From assembly GCF_022458985.1 (NCBI RefSeq), contig NC_061773.1:22788001-22852000 (forward strand): a stretch of DNA of 64,000 nucleotides, written 5' to 3'. Positions 6,601 through 60,000 of the stretch are shown one piece after another. Source of the DNA: Mugil cephalus (taxonomy: Eukaryota > Chordata > Actinopteri > Mugiliformes > Mugilidae). The first letter of the stretch is position 1; each line of letters opens with the position of its first letter. The notes under the pieces were generated by a model. The model had not been told where the DNA came from. It made no database searches and saw nothing but the letters and a program-made list of their open reading frames with translations. Made by a program: the position numbers and the translations under genes.

Positions 6601-9600
6601 GAATATAAATCTGAAGCCGCTGCTGAGAGTCAGTGCAATTAGCGTGAAACGGAATAAAGCTTTTATGGCATCAGCAATAGCACTTATTACTCGTCGTTGA
6701 GCTGAACACAAAACCATACATCAACGTGTTACCCAGACACACCTTTGCTCTCAACACATTTTTCATTTCATTCAAGCTTTTTTTTTCTCTTTTTTTTTTC
6801 CCCCCTGAATGAATACAGTTTAGTTTTGCACTCCACTGTAATGAACTCAGAATGTTTCTGTCAGCAACACTGGCTCGCCACCAGATGATTAAACCGTATG
6901 TGAGCTCTACATGGTGCTGCATGCAGCAGACTCAGTGGGTGGGCCCCCTCGTCAAAGGAAAGATGCTAATGAGCTAACCCATACTGGTAAAATCCTTAGC
7001 CCCAATAGGCAGGCTCGGAAACACTAAGTCCAGTGTTTACTGGAGCCCGGGATGCTAATTAAGAAACAACTGGTCCTTTTCCTGAGAAGGCGTCTGGTTT
7101 GGGTATTTTTTCATCCAGTATGAGAAATGGCAAGTGTTTTCATGTGTAAACCTTCCTCAGTTAACCGCAGCATAGTACTGTACTGTATTGTGTTGTGTGT
7201 CACCCAAAGAAACCCTGTAAGGAAGGAGTGTCCTGGTGGTCCTGCGCTCAACTCATGTCCAGGATGAGACTGTTGTCGTGGCTCATAATAATCGAGGGAC
7301 CGTGAATACCTCCGTGATTGGCTCCGGGGAAAACAAAGATGGTTCCCGATTGAATAATCTTCCAGCGCCCTTTCTTTTCTACCGTTTTCTGCGAATTAAC
7401 TGTCGCGATAACACGCCATACAGTCAAAATTTAATGCATCGTGAATTTGTGTTTATGCAATTAAGTCGTACGTAGCGCGGTGCCAGTTCCGTAATTCAAT
7501 TTGAATACTCGGTTTAGACGACAGGGTGTTCCAGGCTCCGTGTGTTTCTCTTCGGGATGGAACAGAAAGCTAAGCCAGAGTGCGGTCGACGATGATGCGT
7601 GTCTCTGTTTTTGGGTGTGTATTAGTGACAGGGGAAATACTGTGGTCGAGAGCAGCGGTGGGACTCCAGCACAATCAGAAGAGAGCTCAGCTGCGCCGAG
7701 ATTAAGTGTCATGACGTAGTATGTGTATGTATGGAGGATTACTAAGGTGGTCAGAATTTAAGGTCAGCCTAATCACCGGTAGCGTGGCGCACATGCGACT
7801 TCCACTTTCAAAGGAGCAGCACGCGTACGTAGGTAATTTAGCCCGTTTTCGTGCATGTGAACGTACATATTTTCTTATACGTTTCCAAGTGGCTCCTGAC
7901 GAATGATGAACTATCGAGGAGAGCAAAGGAGAATACAGCAGAGGAGAGAGGAGAAGAAGTGGGGGGTGCATTGTTAGGGAATCCAAAGGCGGCGTAATTA
8001 GGCCCAATGGATCCCAGATGGCTGGCTGTCAGTGACGTGAGAAGAGGGACGAGCTCCTAATAGGAACCAGACGCACACAAACGCCTTTGAACTGCCGCTG
8101 AGAGAGAGGAGAGAGCGAGAATCAAACGCGGCATGGGCCGTGTGCTCTTGCTAAATAACTGGCAGCGGGAGACAAGAGGAAGTAAGAAGGAGAGCATAGG
8201 CGCAGGGAAAGTGATCCCCCCTGAGTAGAGTACACAGTATGTGGACGTCTCAACCCAGACATGCCAAAGGTGTCGATTTTATCTGTTTACATCCCTCACA
8301 AAAAACCTTTTCAGTGTTTGCCACCTGTCTGACTTTTTCTTTAATATATATCCTGGAAAGGTTTCCAGAGCCTTTTTTTTTTTTTTTTTTTTTTTCCGAC
8401 CGCTTCACATTCGAACAGTTGCACACATTCACACCTGGGAGCGGTCCCACCTTCTAGTGCTGGCTGCTTACCAGGAGTGGATCAAGAACAGAGATCAAGC
8501 TCTTGGAGCGTTGCCTTTGATAATTTCTCTTTTCATCATTTTCAAACAGAGGGAGTTTACAATTAAGTAAATGTTTGCGGTTAATAATGCAGGAAAAAAA
8601 AAAAAAGTCTCACATTGTACAAGTCTTCCAGTGAAAATCAATCACCTCGAGTTTTTATTTTCATGTTGCAGGCTACCAAGAGTCTGTTCGTTACAACAAT
8701 TAATCTTTTCAGCCTGCTCTGATGTTAATTCAGTCACACCATGACTTCCCTTCTCACTTTATTAAACGATATTCAATCCTCCCAGGTCTCATTTTCTCCC
8801 AAATCACGAACACCTGTTGAAAACACGACTTCTTAAACATGCTATCTAATTTCAGGTGGACCGCAGGGACGAGTTAATATGACGGAACGTACAGTATTTG
8901 GTTTACAGTTTCCTCTCTTCTCTTCTCATCCTCAGGGCTGTGGTGATGCCCATCGCCCACGAGTTCTCCCCTGATGTGGTGCTGGTGTCGGCTGGCTTCG
9001 ATGCCGTCGAAGGACATTCGTCGTCGTTGGGAGGTTACAAGGTCACGGCCAAGTGTATGTCTCTCATACCAGCCTCTCGTACACATTAACATACTTATTG
9101 TTACCATGGTGGGAAAGTATCAGCCTGAGAGAAACCTGCTGATCATAAAACTTCAATACCAATATGGGTTTTTTAGGGCCGATACCGATTTTTTTTTACA
9201 GCAGATTGCTATGGGCGATACACACTGCCGATTTTTCTGATGGCACAATGATAACAAAGTCTCCGTTTAACCAAACACACAAACATTTATTGAACTCAAA
9301 GGATATTTAACGCTCTAATGCATAAAAAATACAAAAGAAACAGGTAAAAAGAGTTAGAGCACAAACAGGGGATTCTAGGGTCAGAAAAAATAAAGTAAAT
9401 TAATAACTTTCTACATTTTCTTATTTCAACTCTTATTTTCGCTGCATGTACCGTGTTAGTGGGGGGGGGGGGGCAATGTATGGGCTGCACGGGTCTGCAG
9501 CATCTCCACAGGGCTGCCTGTGGATGCGCCCGTCTGTAAGGCCCGGTTCATAGTCATGTAATGTGCATATGATAAACCTATTAATCATTTTGTTACACAA

Positions 9601-39376: not shown

Positions 39377-42083
39377 CTACTGGGTCGTACTAGTGAAAAA
39401 ACCTTTCAAGTAGTAGCTGAAAAAGAACTCATCCAACTTCTCCTTCATGTCCGTGATGTTGGCCTCGTCGCGGTAGATGCGTTGAACAAGAATGTCTTCT
39501 CTGGAGTACACCAGCAGATCGCACCACGTCGCTCCGGTCACCATCATCTCTCCTTGGATGTGCCAGTAGCTCAGGTGGTGCCTCTTCAGCTGTAAATCTC
39601 CGTTCCTGCTGAACACGAAATTGGAGTCGGCGAAGCTCGGCAGCATGACGCACTTGATGTGCACCAGTCCGAAGCGGTCCTGCTCGTTGGGGTCGTACAC
39701 CAACCCGTGAGGCGCTGCCCCAAGCCACGGGGCGTTTGGGTGGACAACCAGACCGCAGGGATACCAGTTCACACACAAATGGCGGCAGTATTCCCGAAGT
39801 GCTTCGGTCTTCAGCTCCTCCTCTATCTGTGCCATCTTGGACCTGGGGGGTCCTTTCAGAAGCTTATATATCAGGTCTTCTGCATGTTTACGTCCCGGCT
39901 GAAGTTTGCAGATTTCTTTGAAGCGGTAGGTCAAGCGCATCTTCCGGTGCTCTTCTATAGACTCCCTGCATTCACGTGTCGAGAGCTCCAGATGATGTGC
40001 TGCCTCCCAGGTGATCTGCATGCTATTTACACGTTCATGGTCCTCAGCACTGAGCACAGAGAGGTCCGCAAGCTCCAGGTTGTTAATAGCAAGCGGGAGC
40101 TGCGGCCGAGGGGGAGCGTCGTCACAAGCCTTAAAGTCCTGACTTGATGGCAGAGGGAAATGATAGGAGAGAGGGCAACCTTTAGGGACTTGACCAAGAG
40201 CAGAGTCCACCAATTCTACATTGGACGTCAGGTCAATTGTTGTGATCAGAGGCTTCTTATCATCGGGAAAATCTATAAAGGCTTCCTTGAGACTTTCAAA
40301 GAATGACTGGCAGTCAGGTGGGGGAGGCATGAAAGGTTTGTAGGGCATGATCCTGTGAAGAGAAACAGGTTAGTGCTTTTATCTGTGGAAGAAAACAGGT
40401 ACGACACATTCCGAGTCTCACCGCCCTTACCTAGGAAACTTCAGCATGGTTTTCTGCAGGGACGGGTTATTCTTCTGTTATTGTGTGGCACGATTTCCAC
40501 CCAAGGAAAGAAAATATATATATTAAACACATGTAGTATGTTTCTAACAGTTTCAACAACAACTCAGACTTGCATTGTGAGGGGCTTGGTCTCAATCAAT
40601 CTGAACTGAGCTTCGATTAACTTTTGAGAACTTCTACATGGTCATCAAAGAGAAACCTTACCTTCCACCTTCTCACAAAAGCCAACGCCTGAGATTTGCA
40701 AAGCAACATCTGGATAAACCTGAGTCATCAGTCTTTTGTTGAGGAATAAATGACGTTAAACTGGATTTGATGACCGGCCCATTTCTGTAGAGCTCTGCTG
40801 GAGCGTCTTCAGCCGAGGTACAAGCGACATTAACTTTGACGGACCTATTTGTTGGACTTAATGCAACAAAACTCTACTTTTTTTTTAGGAAAACACACAA
40901 AAACATTACAAAAATGTATTCTTCCATTGCGTTTGTCATATGGGGGATACATTGCTTTGTGTTTTTGTGGCCGCTTGAGGCACTATGTTTGACACCTATG
41001 TTCTAGGGCATTTTTTCCTAAACTTACATTCGTCTTTGAAGATGCAGGACGAGCTTGACGTTCCTGGTTCTCAGCTTCTGCTTCATCGCCCCTGAACGCT
41101 TGTGAGCAATCCGAACCTGCTCCAAGCTCTGAGAAACTCTCCCTCTGGTCACTGTTCTCTTCCTCATCTGAGAGGGTGGCTGAAGAGTCGGTGCTGTAAT
41201 CCACTACATTAATCTGGTATAAATCAGCGATGCTTGTGTCTTCTTCCTTCGGTTCAGTTTTTACACAGTCAAGTACGGCCTCCCCGGGTACTTGTTGCTG
41301 CTCCGGTTCCCACTTTACCTCTGTTTCAATTAACTCTTCTTTGGGTTTTTTAGTCGGTGGCTCAGATACTTCGAATTCAAACTGGGAGTTTCTCTCAAAC
41401 GGCCTCTCTGCGTGGGCTCCAGTGTGTCGACCGTCATCTATTGAAAGAAAACATTGTTAATCAACTACACATCTCCTGCCTTATTTTGAGTATAAAATGT
41501 CTGTAGACGTAGTACCTGCGCATTAAACTGTAATTCTTTGTAGGTACCAGAGAAATAAGCTTTGGATGATTATTACTAATGGAGCAGTAAAGCAAGATGA
41601 TAAACCCTAACAATGCTAAATTACACTCATGTTGGATTTATGAGTTGTTATAATCGTCATTTAGTCTGTTTGGTTTAATAGTATTTGGTTTGCTTATACC
41701 AGAATATTTTATTTCCTTGGGGTTTTAATGCATCCATGCACCCTATTTGCTTAATTTAAGACTATTTAAGTAATAGTTGGGTAACAAATGAGTAGTTGTT
41801 CTGCAGAGGAAGGATAAACCATCATCATCAGTGTTTGACTTCGTTGCGACTCTAAAACTCATGTGCAGCATTAAACTAACCCTGGTAAAGAATGAAAAGA
41901 CAAACCTATGCGGGTTAGCTTTAACTCGGGATTGATCACCATGTGCAGCGTGCTCCTCAGGCGTTTGTTTTCCTCACAGCAATCCTCCAAGATACTTTCA
42001 ACTTCTCCAAATATCTCATCGAACACGGCGTTGAGGCGTTCAGTTAAAATGCCCCTTAAATGCTGGACCCTGCGACGAGCCAT
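39377..42083 (-). CDS. YqaJ/lambda-exonuclease-like protein with zinc-finger-protein-type N-terminus; catalytic acids replaced
   Basis: Four exons (minus strand): 42083-41906, 41437-41028, 40474-40431 (44 bases) and 40352-39377. All have GT-AG borders and join in phase to 535 residues plus stop. Residues 1-60 (MARRRVQHLRGILTERLNAV...) form a heptad-rich helix like the N-terminus of many fish C2H2 zinc-finger proteins. About 60-197 is acidic and low in complexity, with KPKEE and KTEPKEE. From about 330 a YqaJ-type PD-(D/E)XK nuclease fold follows, recognised by the frame LVVHPNAPWLGAAPHGLVYD, then VHIKC and YWHIQGEMMVTG. In active YqaJ proteins these positions usually read SPDG and E-x-K. Here they read APHG and HIK, and the upstream E-P-x-A motif reads KTEA. 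No zinc finger follows. The start has a fair context (GAAATGG). No stop or frameshift breaks the frame, so the gene looks maintained, but it is probably not a nuclease. Role unknown. Confidence 0.85.
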
Positions 42084-43000: not shown

Positions 43001-43584
43001 AGTTCTTGTTTTAGACGGAAATGTGTAAAAATATGATCCTAATTCAGGAATTGATGGTTTATTAGATTTTGTTCAGTTTTAAACACATTCTGTGTTATTT
43101 TTTGACTTAAAGACCCCTTCATGGTCTACGTCACAGTGATGTCACGTTGTTAACTGGAGACAAAACAGAGCCTGAGAAGTCTGAGGTGAACACAATCACT
43201 TTCAGCTATGACAATGTCCTCTTGCTGTAGTTTTTGGTGCCAAAACCGAAAAATCAAAAACACTAACTTGAAGTTTCTACACATACCAGCCACTGCCACT
43301 TGTAGACAGCTTTGGTTTGACTTTGATGATTAAAAGAAAGGAATGGAATGAGACAGTCAACAAGGGACACACTTCTTATCAGATAAGATTAATATGTAAT
43401 GAATCATCAGTTTCAGCCTTGATAACTATGAGATATTATGAATTGGAATAACTCTTGACTGAAAATATGTTAAGTTAATATTTTTCCATAAATATTTCAT
43501 GATAATGTTTGAGATTGTATACAATTTTACGGATGTCCGAAACAGTTTTTCACTACTTTTTTGTTTATGTTTTGTTCCCCCCTA

Positions 43585-54031: not shown

Positions 54032-57000
54032 CTAACATTGTTTAGGTATCCGTAGCGCCTCGGTGTCTGCGGAGATGACTTGGTGCATGACACCTCTGAA
54101 CTGGTACAGTAATTTTAGACTCTTCTCCTCTCCCACGCAGGGGTCGTAGAAGCCGGGCAACCCCGCCTGCACACAGAGAAACCATTCAGAGACACAGCGC
54201 TCGCCTTTGAACACGCGCTACGGTTTGAGTAGACTCGCCTTGGAGGCCTCGGTGAGGATGAGTTTGGAGTCTTTGACCAGGCACTGCAGAGGCACGGTCA
54301 CGTCGATGACCTTGGCTTTCTCTTGCTTCTGGCTGGTGTCTGACACGAACTTTCCGTACCAGGCGTTCAGGATGATGAGACCTGGACAGTGACGGATGAG
54401 ACCCGGTGAAAGAGTGTTTCGATTATCGAGTGGGTTGCGGTTGACGCTGCAATTGTGTAAACACAAAAAACTGAAAATATGTTGCATGGAAACCAGACTT
54501 GTTGCCATGGCACCTTGATATCAGTGCTACCCGCTTCGCCTGAGCATTAGAAAGTGCTGCGGACGCATCCAGAAATGAACTTTTCAAGCAAAAGCATCTA
54601 ATAAACCTGACATCAGCTCACCGAAAATCAAAGTTTGGATTTATGTCAAAGCTCTGTGGTGTTCTGCGTGGAGCCTAACCTAGAGATGGGCCCCCCCACC
54701 ACCACCACCACCACCACTATCATGACTTGCCTCACAGATGATAAGCAGGTGATCAGAAAAGCAGGTATCCTGAAGCTACTATATATTATGTAGTGTTGAC
54801 AGCTACGCCGACGAGTGCATTTGAATTAAAAATTTCGGTTTTTCACCTGGTTTGGACTCCCTACAAACTGAAAAAAAGGCTTTCCCACCCAGGTGTAATG
54901 CCCGAAAGTGAGTGCGTGCGTCTGTGTCTCACCCATCTTGGATTCTTCTGCTTCTATGATTCTCCTCACAGACTCCTGCATCAGCAGAACCTGCAGAGGA
55001 GCCGAGGGAATGGATGGAGACGAGGAGGAGGAGGAGGAGGAGGAGGAGGAGGAGGGGTGATGGAGGAGGAAAGCGAAACAAGATAGGATGGTAGAGAGGT
55101 TCTCAGACGAGACTCAGTCATGAGTTCGTAATGAGGAAGAGCTGAACTTAGAAACAATGATCAATTATCCCTCCCCACACACACAACACACAACGAATAA
55201 CTGTGTCTTTGCCAGCGAGCACTCACAGCAGACTCTGCCTCCTGCTTCTTCTTGGCGATGTCTGTGGCGGAGCTCTTCCTCTGCAGCTCCAGCTCCCTGA
55301 GAGACACGGAGACAGACAACGCAGACATCAACAACTCGCCCACTGGGATTCACCGCGGAGCCTCAATCTGACGACAGCGCGAGTGTGAAAGAAACCCCTC
55401 TAGTATTCACGACACCCAGAACTGGAATCCTATTTTTGCCCATATCAGAGGTGTGTGCACGGATGGACATAGTCAGAGATCTAACTATTATTTAACCCTT
55501 TATGGGACACTCGTGTACGGAATAGTGTCAGAAAACTGTCAGAAACCGTTTTTAAAATGTTTTCATTTCCATGGGGAAACTCAAGAATTTACTATATACG
55601 GTTCCTTGGCCTTAAGTGGTAAACAAACATGTATTTAGACCATATTTAGACCAAAAATAATAATATTTGAACTGGTGCATAATTTGAATAGCTTAATACT
55701 GAACGCAGAATGATAATAATAATGTATATTTATCATTTGCAGAGTTTAATATAGAACACACATCTTTACATCAGTTTGGGGGTCCTTGATTCAGGCACTT
55801 GTCAACATTATTGCATCAGACAACATTAAGCCACTTCTTCGGAGGTGCAAACCACATTTGACCTGAGAATGTTTCCTTGATCTTCTCTGATTGGCTGAAT
55901 GAAAACTACATGCTTCTAAACCTCACTGAGAGGTACAAGGATGCAATTTAAAATGTGTGACCATATGTGGTTCCTTGCCCCATAAAGGGTTAAGCGTACT
56001 AAATTATATTTAAAACAAAAATCAGTAATAGGAGAACTTAGCAAGTCTAGGTGTGTGGTAAAGACAAGTCTATATCAATTACATTAAAGACAAGCTGGGA
56101 ACCGAGATGATCTGCTACTGAGATAAAGTGGTGGTTGAGGCAGAGGACATGTACTTACTGCTCTTTCTGTGCTCGTGTATACGGGATGATGACCATCCGG
56201 TGGACGGCCATGTACACCAGCAGGGGCCCCACGGTGGCATAGAAGACAGCGCTGGGCAGCAGCTGGTCGGTCAGGTGGACTGGAAACAGGTACGTCTGAC
56301 TTGCGCGCGCCAGCCTGCACGAAAACAAAATAAACCCAGCAGAGGTTTAAACACGGCCATCGGGTAATGACGCAGAGCGACGGGTACACGCTTTTTTTTG
56401 CCAGTACTTGATCTTGAGCGTGACTCCCTGCGGGACGCCGATGCTGACGGTGGCTGAGAGGACACTGTGTCTGCTGATCTTCCTCTCCGCTCCGTATTCG
56501 ACCACCGTGCCAAACCAGCCCGTCCTGCAAAGGGAGGAACGCAAAAGTGAACGGAGGACGTTGGACAAATGGAGCTAGGCAGCAAATTAAGACAATGAGT
56601 AATTTCAGTCGATAAAGTGTATTCATTTTTAACAATGTGAATATTTTTAAATGTATTTTACACCAATGCCTGTATTTTACAGTATTTAATTTAGTATGAG
56701 TATTTAGTATTTAGCTCACTATCAACTAAATATATCTTTTCCATTGAGGTGATTTTACTTGATATTCTTGTCTTATGAACTGTTTGATTTATATATATAT
56801 ATATACAGACATACTTGAAAGAGCCTTTAACTTTAGTCTGGTCCTCATCCTGGAACTTGTACTGGTAGCTCATCATCAGGTAGGAGTGAAGCACACCCAG
56901 CTGGACGGAGCAGAATAAAAATAAATAAAGACAAGGTAAATTTAAGCAAAATATTTAGAGAAATCTTGAGATAGCCATCGATGCTACATCCACTCCCGCC

Positions 57001-60000
57001 TACCTGCAGAGCGAGAGTAAAGTGGCTGCTCTTTGTGTCTCGGACCAGGCTGGTGGTCATGGCGCTGTTGGGCCCCCAGCGCCACTGAAGATAACCCATG
57101 GTGTTCTGATCCAGGTGGCGAGCTGTCATCAGAGAACAGCTCGGCCGCAGACCTCGAGGAGAGAACTGTAATCCACTCTGGGCTGTTAAGAAGCTGGGCG
57201 GAAAGAGGATATTAAGGGAAGGAGACTGGTGCACATATTTTAATATGGTACTTAATAATTATAATCATAATAATCGAGATGTTATGCCGTACCACCGCGG
57301 AGTGAGATTGCGAAACACCTTCAGCCCAATAAGAGGTCCCAGGATGTCTCCAGCACCCAGCTCCACCTGCAAAGACGAATGCAGACATAAGCACAGGGGA
57401 AGGAAGCTAACAGAGCCAACCGTTCAATCTGCTAAATAAAAAATGGACGAGCAGCTACAGCGCGCTTAACAGCGTGTGCACTTGTGTGTACCTCTCCCCA
57501 GCCCTTGGCCGACATAACTCTGCGTACGGTCATGTTAATGTTGCCGCCTCCATTTCCATTGTGGGTAGAGAGCGAACCTGACAGCACTGCTGTGTCAGAG
57601 TTTGTCAAAGGTGCCTGAGAAAAGACAGGGGGGGGAAGTGGCACGCAAATTAATGACAGAACACCAAAGTGGACCCGGCCCAGGTTAGGAAGCGGGTGAA
57701 CGTTAAACGCAAAGTGAGTGCGTCTGGTCGCACCTCAATGGACTGTGAAATATGCATCTTGTTGATTTCAATATGAGGAAAGCCTCCTCCTGGCATGTCT
57801 TCAAAGTCCTCATCATAGCGATCAAACAGGTCCGTTGCATCTATGCCAACGCTGATGGTGCCCTGATTGATGATGGAGAGAATAAACAGAGACTGACAGG
57901 ATTAATTAAGAAAAAAGGAAAACAGTCGGGGGCACAGCAACATGGATGTGGAAACTATCCGCAATAAAATCCAAATTGTATGAGACAATCTTTTTAAATA
58001 ATATTTAGATTGAAGCGGTGACGTTAAATTTACTTTATTGTCAAGTACGTTCCACATACAATCAATTTATCTTCTTTTGTTTGGTGCATAACAACAACAA
58101 CAGTAAACATAGCAACAAAAAACTATTAGAAAGTAAAAAGACTGAGAAAACCTTGGGGTTCGTTCTTTGTTGCAGCCTCCTCTCCTCTCTTTCTCTCTGT
58201 AGTCTTTCATACTCCTCTCGGATTTCTGCCGGTGTCCTCTTCCTCTCCACCACCTGCACAGTATCAAAATCACAAGATATGGGCGATGAAGGTAGGTAAG
58301 GTGGCAGCAAAACTCCTCAAAGTTAAGATAAATAGCTTAGACTTACCTCCCAGCCTTCCACTTCCAGCCCTTTCTTCCCGAAAATATCATAGATGGCTCT
58401 GGAGTGAGCATCACTCAGCACTGAGGGGAAAGAGGGAGGAATTACTGGTCAGCTCATGCAGATGCTTAGTCCGTTTTCAGGTCCTCTTTTGGGAGACTTT
58501 TTTGAGTAAAAACCTTCTGTACCTGTGAGCGCTCTTACCTTCGTAAGCCTGGTGAACCTGGTTGAAAAGTTGTTCGGCTTGCCTTTTCAGCTCAGGGTCC
58601 CGGTGTTTGTCGGGGTGGTAGAGCATACATAGCCTCCGGTACGACGCCTTCAGCTCCTCTAAGGTGGCCTGAGGGAAAAGAGGGAGGACAGGCGCCACTT
58701 CTGAGCAGGGCTGCAATCAACAATTACTTAACATCGTTGCATCACCGCACTTTGTTAAGTGGCTTATTAATTGTTTGGCTGAACAAACGGAGGTTCTTCA
58801 GATAAGTGGCTTTTATCCAAACAAGTTCAGGTCCTTAATCTTTACCCACAAGATGATTACGAGGGGCTGGAACCTTATTTTTCTTGCTTGGTTTTCATAG
58901 GGAGGTGTGAAAAAAACACTTTAAACTAAAAATGCTTGATAAGTGTTAATATGTCTGTGAACCCTTTGCCTTCAAGACTGCATCAATTCTTCTAGGTACT
59001 TGCACACGGTTTCTGAAGGAACTCGACTGGTAGGTTGTCCCAAACATCTTGGAGAACTAACCACGGACACTCTGTGGATGCAGGCTTCCTCAAATCCTTC
59101 TGTCTCTTCGTGTAATCCAAGATGATGTTGGGATCAACACGCCCCCATGCTCACTTCCAGGACTTCTTGTTCTTCTTTACACTGAAGACAGTTCTTAAAC
59201 ACCATTAATCCTGACCAAATCCTCCATGCTTCACTGTTGTCTGCATACACTCATTATTGCAGCACTCTCCAGCCCTTTCGGTGAACAAACCGCCTTCTGC
59301 TACAGCCAAACATTTCACATTTTGTCTCATCAGTCCAGAGCACCTGCTGCCACTTTCCTGCTCCCCAGTTCCTGTGTTTTTTCACGCATTGCTGAGAGCG
59401 ATGGATTTTTGGCTGCAGCTCTTCCATGAAGACCACTTCTGGCCAGACTTCTCCAGACAGTAGGTGGGTGTACCTGGGTGCCGCTGGATTCTGCCAGTTC
59501 TGAGCTGATGGCAATACTGTTCATTTTCCAATTTGGAAGAGAAATAAGCTTGATGCGTTTTTCATCCGCTGCACTAAGTTTCCTCGGCCGACCACTGCAT
59601 CTACGATCCTACAAAGTGCCATGCATTTTGTAAATTGATAAAAAATAAACGATTATTTATATTTTTGAGCACTTTCTTAGTTTACAGCATTTTTTTCCAC
59701 ACCTGCCTAAAACATATGAGGCGACATGCAGAGGTGGACCTTGTAGACCACATTTGACCCTGATTTGACCTGAGAATGTTGTCTTGATCTTTACTGGTTG
59801 GCTGAATGAAAACTACATGCTTCTAAACCTCACAGAGACACGGGGATGCAATTTAAAATGTGGCTGAATTTTACCAAATATTTTTTCCTTGCCCAACATG
59901 CTTTTAACATGAAAATAAAAGTATAAAAATGTTCCTCCTCTGGGCTCTGCCTTATCCAGCAGGTCAAAGTCGTACCTGCCCCGTTTCCAAAACACTCCAA

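Follow-up and report, generated by a model that had tools for sequence, protein, structure and literature searches.

A 64,000-nucleotide (nt) stretch of the Mugil cephalus genome, hereafter the window (C4:22788001-22852000 in the genome set), carries on its minus strand a gene predicted to fuse a zinc-finger-type N-terminus to a YqaJ nuclease fold, and raises the question of what such a fold does once the residues that bind its metals have been replaced. The best explanation, which is rather probable as a whole, is that this is a host gene derived from a captured YqaJ nuclease of an ISL2EU transposon, that its metal site is dead, and that its product acts as a non-catalytic adaptor. The ISL2EU origin and the dead catalytic centre are, taken jointly, very probable; a non-catalytic nuclear adaptor is put forward tentatively as the way of working. 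Genome-wide searches took in 634.8 Mb in 24 contigs, all of one genome.

The predicted fusion gene and its modelled nuclease fold

Four minus-strand exons (42083-41906, 41437-41028, 40474-40431 and 40352-39377) join in phase to encode 535 amino acids, all three introns start with GT and end with AG, and a host exon is thereby joined in frame to the YqaJ exon by predicted splicing, splice sites and phase being the whole basis of the joining. Exon 1 (41906..42083) consists of an ATG and 59 codons and ends at a G/GT donor in phase 1. Exon 2 (41028..41437) encodes an acidic linker of 137 amino acids (35 D/E versus 14 K/R); among the seven candidates scored, nothing else in the genome matches it at E up to 1. 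Exon 4 (39377..40352), the transposon-derived part, ends in a TAG stop; its open reading frame (ORF) is not a product of chance, since none of 2000 order-1 Markov resamples reached the 324 codons needed (the longest had 264). Splice sites, phases and resampling thus agree with the four in-phase exons of the original prediction. The 44-nt exon 3 (40431..40474) does fit in frame between GT-AG introns, but its acceptor is weak (8/16 pyrimidines at positions -20 to -5), and a second AG lying 21 nt further in (9/16 pyrimidines) gives an equally in-frame exon of 23 nt (40431-40453) and a protein of 528 amino acids, whereas skipping exon 3 breaks the frame. Judged from these signals, the exon 3 boundaries appear less sure than had been assumed, and either the 44-nt or the 23-nt form may be in use. 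The exons have a GC content of 0.46-0.52, against 0.34-0.46 in the measured introns and flanks, and Rfam gave no matches at gathering score.

The YqaJ/lambda-exonuclease-like domain occupies residues 142-325 of the exon-4 ORF (39395..39946, minus strand). Homology to the family (PF09588) was found with 3syy (E 0.0011), with phage sequences by tblastn (5e-5) and with a profile built for this analysis (69.5 bits); when only the fish protein was used to scan viral contigs, four stretches came up and none was confirmed. The lambda-exonuclease fold was found in a model of the exon-4 domain, in which 10-residue blocks over residues 151-320 have a mean predicted local distance difference test score (pLDDT) of 81-96, but of 70-76 in residues 241-260. 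Sequence homology and the modelled fold both support the captured YqaJ nuclease fold that had been proposed.

Residues of the active site

Activity of lambda exonuclease requires the active-site residues E85, D119 and K131 and the 5'-phosphate pocket residues W24 and R28 (available portion of PMC7496540), and its metal is bound by D119, E129 and L130 (available portion of PMC3118119). When the fish protein is aligned with its relatives, lysine stands at E85 (Lys392, codon AAG, 39809..39811), alanine at S117 (Ala424, GCG, 39713..39715), and histidine at D119 (His426, CAC, 39707..39709), E129 (His442, CAC, 39659..39661) and Q157 (His475, CAC, 39560..39562), while K131 is unchanged (Lys444, AAG, 39653..39655; all on the minus strand). 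S35, S117 and Q157 are here presumed to belong to the lambda-exonuclease active site. The metal-binding acids E85, D119 and E129 are therefore absent, replaced by K, H and H, and in all five replacements the protein differs from lambda exonuclease and LHK-Exo (PF09588). The original prediction had named these three changes correctly, with only K131 kept, but had missed S117 to A and Q157 to H.

The family residue is present at E85, S117, D119, E129, K131 and Q157 in all 99 relatives of a profile alignment (149 rows before removal of redundancy). One scan for relatives was selected for EIK and another for a DG and LE(I/V)KCP, so that the conservation of E129 and K131 (and of D119 in the second scan) was partly imposed; E, SPD, EIK and Q are kept in 10/10 phage proteins, chosen from 68 records without motif selection. 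Within the C-terminal part the protein retains one of six active-site columns but 12 of the 15 remaining conserved ones (Fisher p 0.014; 0.041 over the whole domain), and a separate calculation gave p 0.007-0.047, both with an extended residue set that includes the presumed S35, S117 and Q157. The residue pattern suggests that catalysis was lost while the fold was kept, and is not proof of selection.

Several points weigh against the best explanation. With only the residues cited in papers, the Fisher test gave p 0.18-0.28, which is not significant, so that the result depends on the residue set. The curated Pfam cut-off for PF09588 was missed (16.1 bits, E 0.014, versus 22), and the fold model was built from aligned active relatives, an input that favours the YqaJ fold.

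The 5'-phosphate pocket lies where the N-terminal alignment is unstable: the profile has W24 kept and R28 lost, the relatives within the genome have R28 kept and, in that register, W24 lost, and an ungapped alignment with closer viral rows, which fixes the motif after R28, places His at R28. The alignments thus differ at W24, R28 and S35. A first N-terminal alignment with His at R28 was rejected, as the relatives within the genome align RK-x-R-x-T, making R28 Arg347.

The probable transposon source and the zinc-finger module

ISL2EU elements contain THAP, HTH and DDE together with a YqaJ ORF, according to the available portions of PMC4482050 and PMC9179366. Searching the M. cephalus genome with the exon-4 protein gave 20 additional matches at E up to 10, and the weaker among these may be due to chance. 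Of the copies read, those on C1, C2, C22 and C23 contain stops, and the C6 and C9 copies are partial. THAP, HTH_Tnp_4 and/or DDE_Tnp_4 domains lie on the strand opposite the YqaJ piece in four regions (L192, L195, L197 and L199), in a domain search that covered the ORFs of five regions and left out L193, L194 and L196. In region L198 a weak match to the gene (E 0.04) shares its strand with a DDE_Tnp_4 frame; this frame (L198:6128-6859, on C6, E 5.6e-23) perhaps belongs to another Harbinger-like element.

Where they are readable, the relatives keep the residues that the fusion gene has lost: E85 in 4/4, D119 in 6/6, E129 in 6/6 and Q157 in 4/4, with S at S117 in 5/6 and N in L196. Eight cells past breaks or unaligned were excluded, namely E129 (H) and K131 (A) of L195, E85 (K) of L175, and S117 (K), D119 (H), E129 (H), K131 (gap) and Q157 (stop) of L197, and L189 and L198 have no row in this alignment at E up to 1. 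Region L175 contains a YqaJ piece of a different subfamily (L175:1465-1803; C9:225388-225570, minus strand) with SPDG and LEVKC intact and an open frame of 112 codons, followed by a second exon-like piece at L175:1009-1296; it could be another host gene. Flanking the C1 transposon copy are two open frames (L193:681-1478 and 7568-8326) that, by motif only, we take to be like immune-type V domains.

Exon 4 resembles the second ORF of ISL2EU over residues 27-327, that is, over most of its length. On the upstream side of the nuclease domain, residues 27-93 (40091..40291, minus strand) are 48% identical to the C1 copy (L193), which shows that the captured part extends beyond that domain. Unlike the second ORF of ISL2EU, the fish gene has host exons in front and lacks the acids, a clear adjacent transposase or ends, and a SWIM-like finger. 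This CxC..CxH finger, for which the name SWIM is our assumption, was found upstream of YqaJ in four of seven regions and not in the gene, as a pattern match only. It is not given as a defining feature of ISL2EU in the available portions of the cited papers. The window yielded no clear transposase remnant, the best candidate (at 54737) having E 0.04 and a THAP-like stretch (43193-43315) only E 0.09, and a Pfam search of the N-terminal 196 amino acids and nine window ORFs found no transposase. At the nucleotide level the gene region matches the transposon copies in two short stretches (104 and 58 nt), both outside exons. No ISL2EU ends were recognized around the gene, the 25 longest of 214 inverted pairs being A/T-rich runs or the weak AT-rich pairs I19 (36082-36108/42645-42671, 78%) and I20 (37814-37843/42995-43024, 30 nt, 70% complementary, first 10 nt identical). 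Both pairs bracket the gene, in the case of I20 probably by chance among the 214, and neither begins with GG as ISL2EU ends usually do (available portion of PMC4482050).

At E up to 1 the genome contains 47 other matches to exon 1, singly weak (best 0.004) and mostly clustered on C7, C8, C10 and C22. Of 29 other loci, two were misplaced by tblastn and left out; all 27 that could be placed have the phase-1 G/GT donor and an identical exon end, and 13 of these are followed by at least two C2H2 units on the same strand within 1.5 kb. The common exon, splice point and downstream C2H2 units identify exon 1 as a module of zinc-finger genes. The fusion gene thus shares its first exon and splice point with the C2H2 zinc-finger genes that form clusters in this genome, and is unlike them in having a YqaJ exon in place of zinc fingers: no C2H2 array was found in exon 1 and 1.5 kb on each side (region L200), and a Pfam search of the spliced protein (E up to 10) gave no C2H2 domain. 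The N-terminal helix encoded by exon 1 may dimerise with zinc-finger proteins. The original interpretation is therefore partly supported, namely in its captured fold, dead site and zinc-finger-type N-terminus, and the second ORF of ISL2EU is newly added to it as the source. Two dense tandem clusters of first exons of this type (C7:2464172-2627889 and C7:3332447-3568590), very similar by eye, represent a large, probably young zinc-finger expansion.

The surroundings are an ordinary gene-rich stretch. On one side of the gene are a histone deacetylase (HDAC6 by top whole score, HDAC4 by best single stretch), a basic helix-loop-helix gene (HLH domain) that we take to be TWIST-like, and an HRG1-type frame marginally below Pfam's cut-off; on the other side are PHF13-type and DNAJC11-type genes. 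A Tc3-type transposase fragment lies at 59333-59608 of the window (minus strand; HTH_Tnp_Tc3_2, E 8.4e-8).

Proposed mode of action, rival explanations and significance

In the proposed mechanism, the second ORF of an ISL2EU transposon, consisting of a SWIM-like finger and a YqaJ nuclease, would have lost its front part, and the remainder would have become spliced behind a C2H2 zinc-finger first exon and an acidic exon. In the modelled protein the YqaJ fold is retained, but the metal site is lost (E85K, S117A, D119H, E129H, Q157H), so that cleavage of DNA through the known two-metal mechanism is not expected. The fold would bind DNA or a partner and form oligomers, the N-terminal helix would pair with zinc-finger proteins having the same module, and the adaptor would regulate chromatin or transposons. 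The eIF3d cap-binding domain is a nuclease-like fold used for binding; it was among the matches listed, and is a possible precedent for the retention of such a fold as a binder.

The main rival, which is unlikely although it fares best, is a dominant-negative protein whose dead subunits join trimers of active ISL2EU YqaJ, or compete with them for DNA ends, and so restrain transposition. When lambda exonuclease trimers are mixed with K131A, activity falls about in proportion to the mutant share (available portion of PMC7496540), and relatives of the source transposon are present in the same genome; but none of the copies read, in a search that scores best candidates only, showed a full open YqaJ frame, so that perhaps no target is left, and co-assembly is doubtful because the gene is only 26-48% identical to these copies in aligned pieces. 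It is improbable that the Mg site was rebuilt, with D119, E129 and Q157 becoming a three-histidine pocket that binds Zn or some other metal or ligand. Three of the five losses are to histidine, all by CAC codons, for which P is about 0.001 at a 5% histidine rate in a post hoc test; if true, such a pocket would mean that a transposon nuclease became a metal-dependent binding module, tied to the zinc-finger network through exon 1.

Somewhat less credible still is a dying gene, recently captured or under long relaxed constraint, that lost its acids by drift. The equivalents of the non-catalytic conserved residues Q19, G30, E64, G81 and R167 are lost too, the exon 3 acceptors are weak, and the losses are not significantly concentrated when the strict residue set is used. 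However, the gene has kept all three introns and its 535 codons intact, although the identity of its pieces is only 34-48% with most of the copies read and 26-37% with the C2 and C23 copies. The transposon copies read are themselves broken or partial, including L193, L194 and L195, which are 82-93% alike among themselves in DNA where they align. In a simulation of substitutions only, the frame stayed open in 112/2000 runs at 5% divergence, in 9/2000 at 10%, and in 0/2000 at each step from 15% to 40%. An intact frame at such divergence, together with the simulation, argues indirectly that the frame of the fusion gene has probably been under selection. An enzyme with a rebuilt, carboxylate-free site is very improbable: three of the five lost residues are now histidine and a lysine is kept, but 99/99 relatives have the metal-binding acids (partly by selection in the scans), and lambda exonuclease needs E85 and D119 (available portion of PMC7496540). 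Least credible, and already disfavoured, is a transposon copy rather than a host gene: in its favour, exon 4 is ISL2EU-like and I19 and I20 bracket the gene, but both pairs are weak and do not begin with GG, the window has no clear transposase remnant, the SWIM-like finger is missing and the first exon is host-type.

Host capture of transposases is well known, and vertebrate host-transposase fusion genes were reportedly described by Cosby et al. in 2021. The captured YqaJ gene is like these in that a host exon is spliced to a transposon-coded protein, and unlike them in that the captured part is an accessory nuclease rather than a transposase and the N-terminus is a module of fish zinc-finger genes. 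A comparable host gene was not described in the titles and abstract openings of the papers listed from one open-access library, which is weak evidence of novelty, and the word YqaJ is absent from the available main text of a survey of transposon-host domain fusions (PMC12062965). A roach YQAJ gene, dropped from quantitative polymerase chain reaction for unspecific amplification (available portion of PMC10525477), may be a transposon. The functions of additional ORFs such as the YqaJ of ISL2EU are described as unknown in the available portion of PMC4482050, and a host copy with the fold but without catalysis makes non-cutting roles of the YqaJ fold testable. The gene also shows the N-terminal exon of zinc-finger genes acting as a shuffled module.
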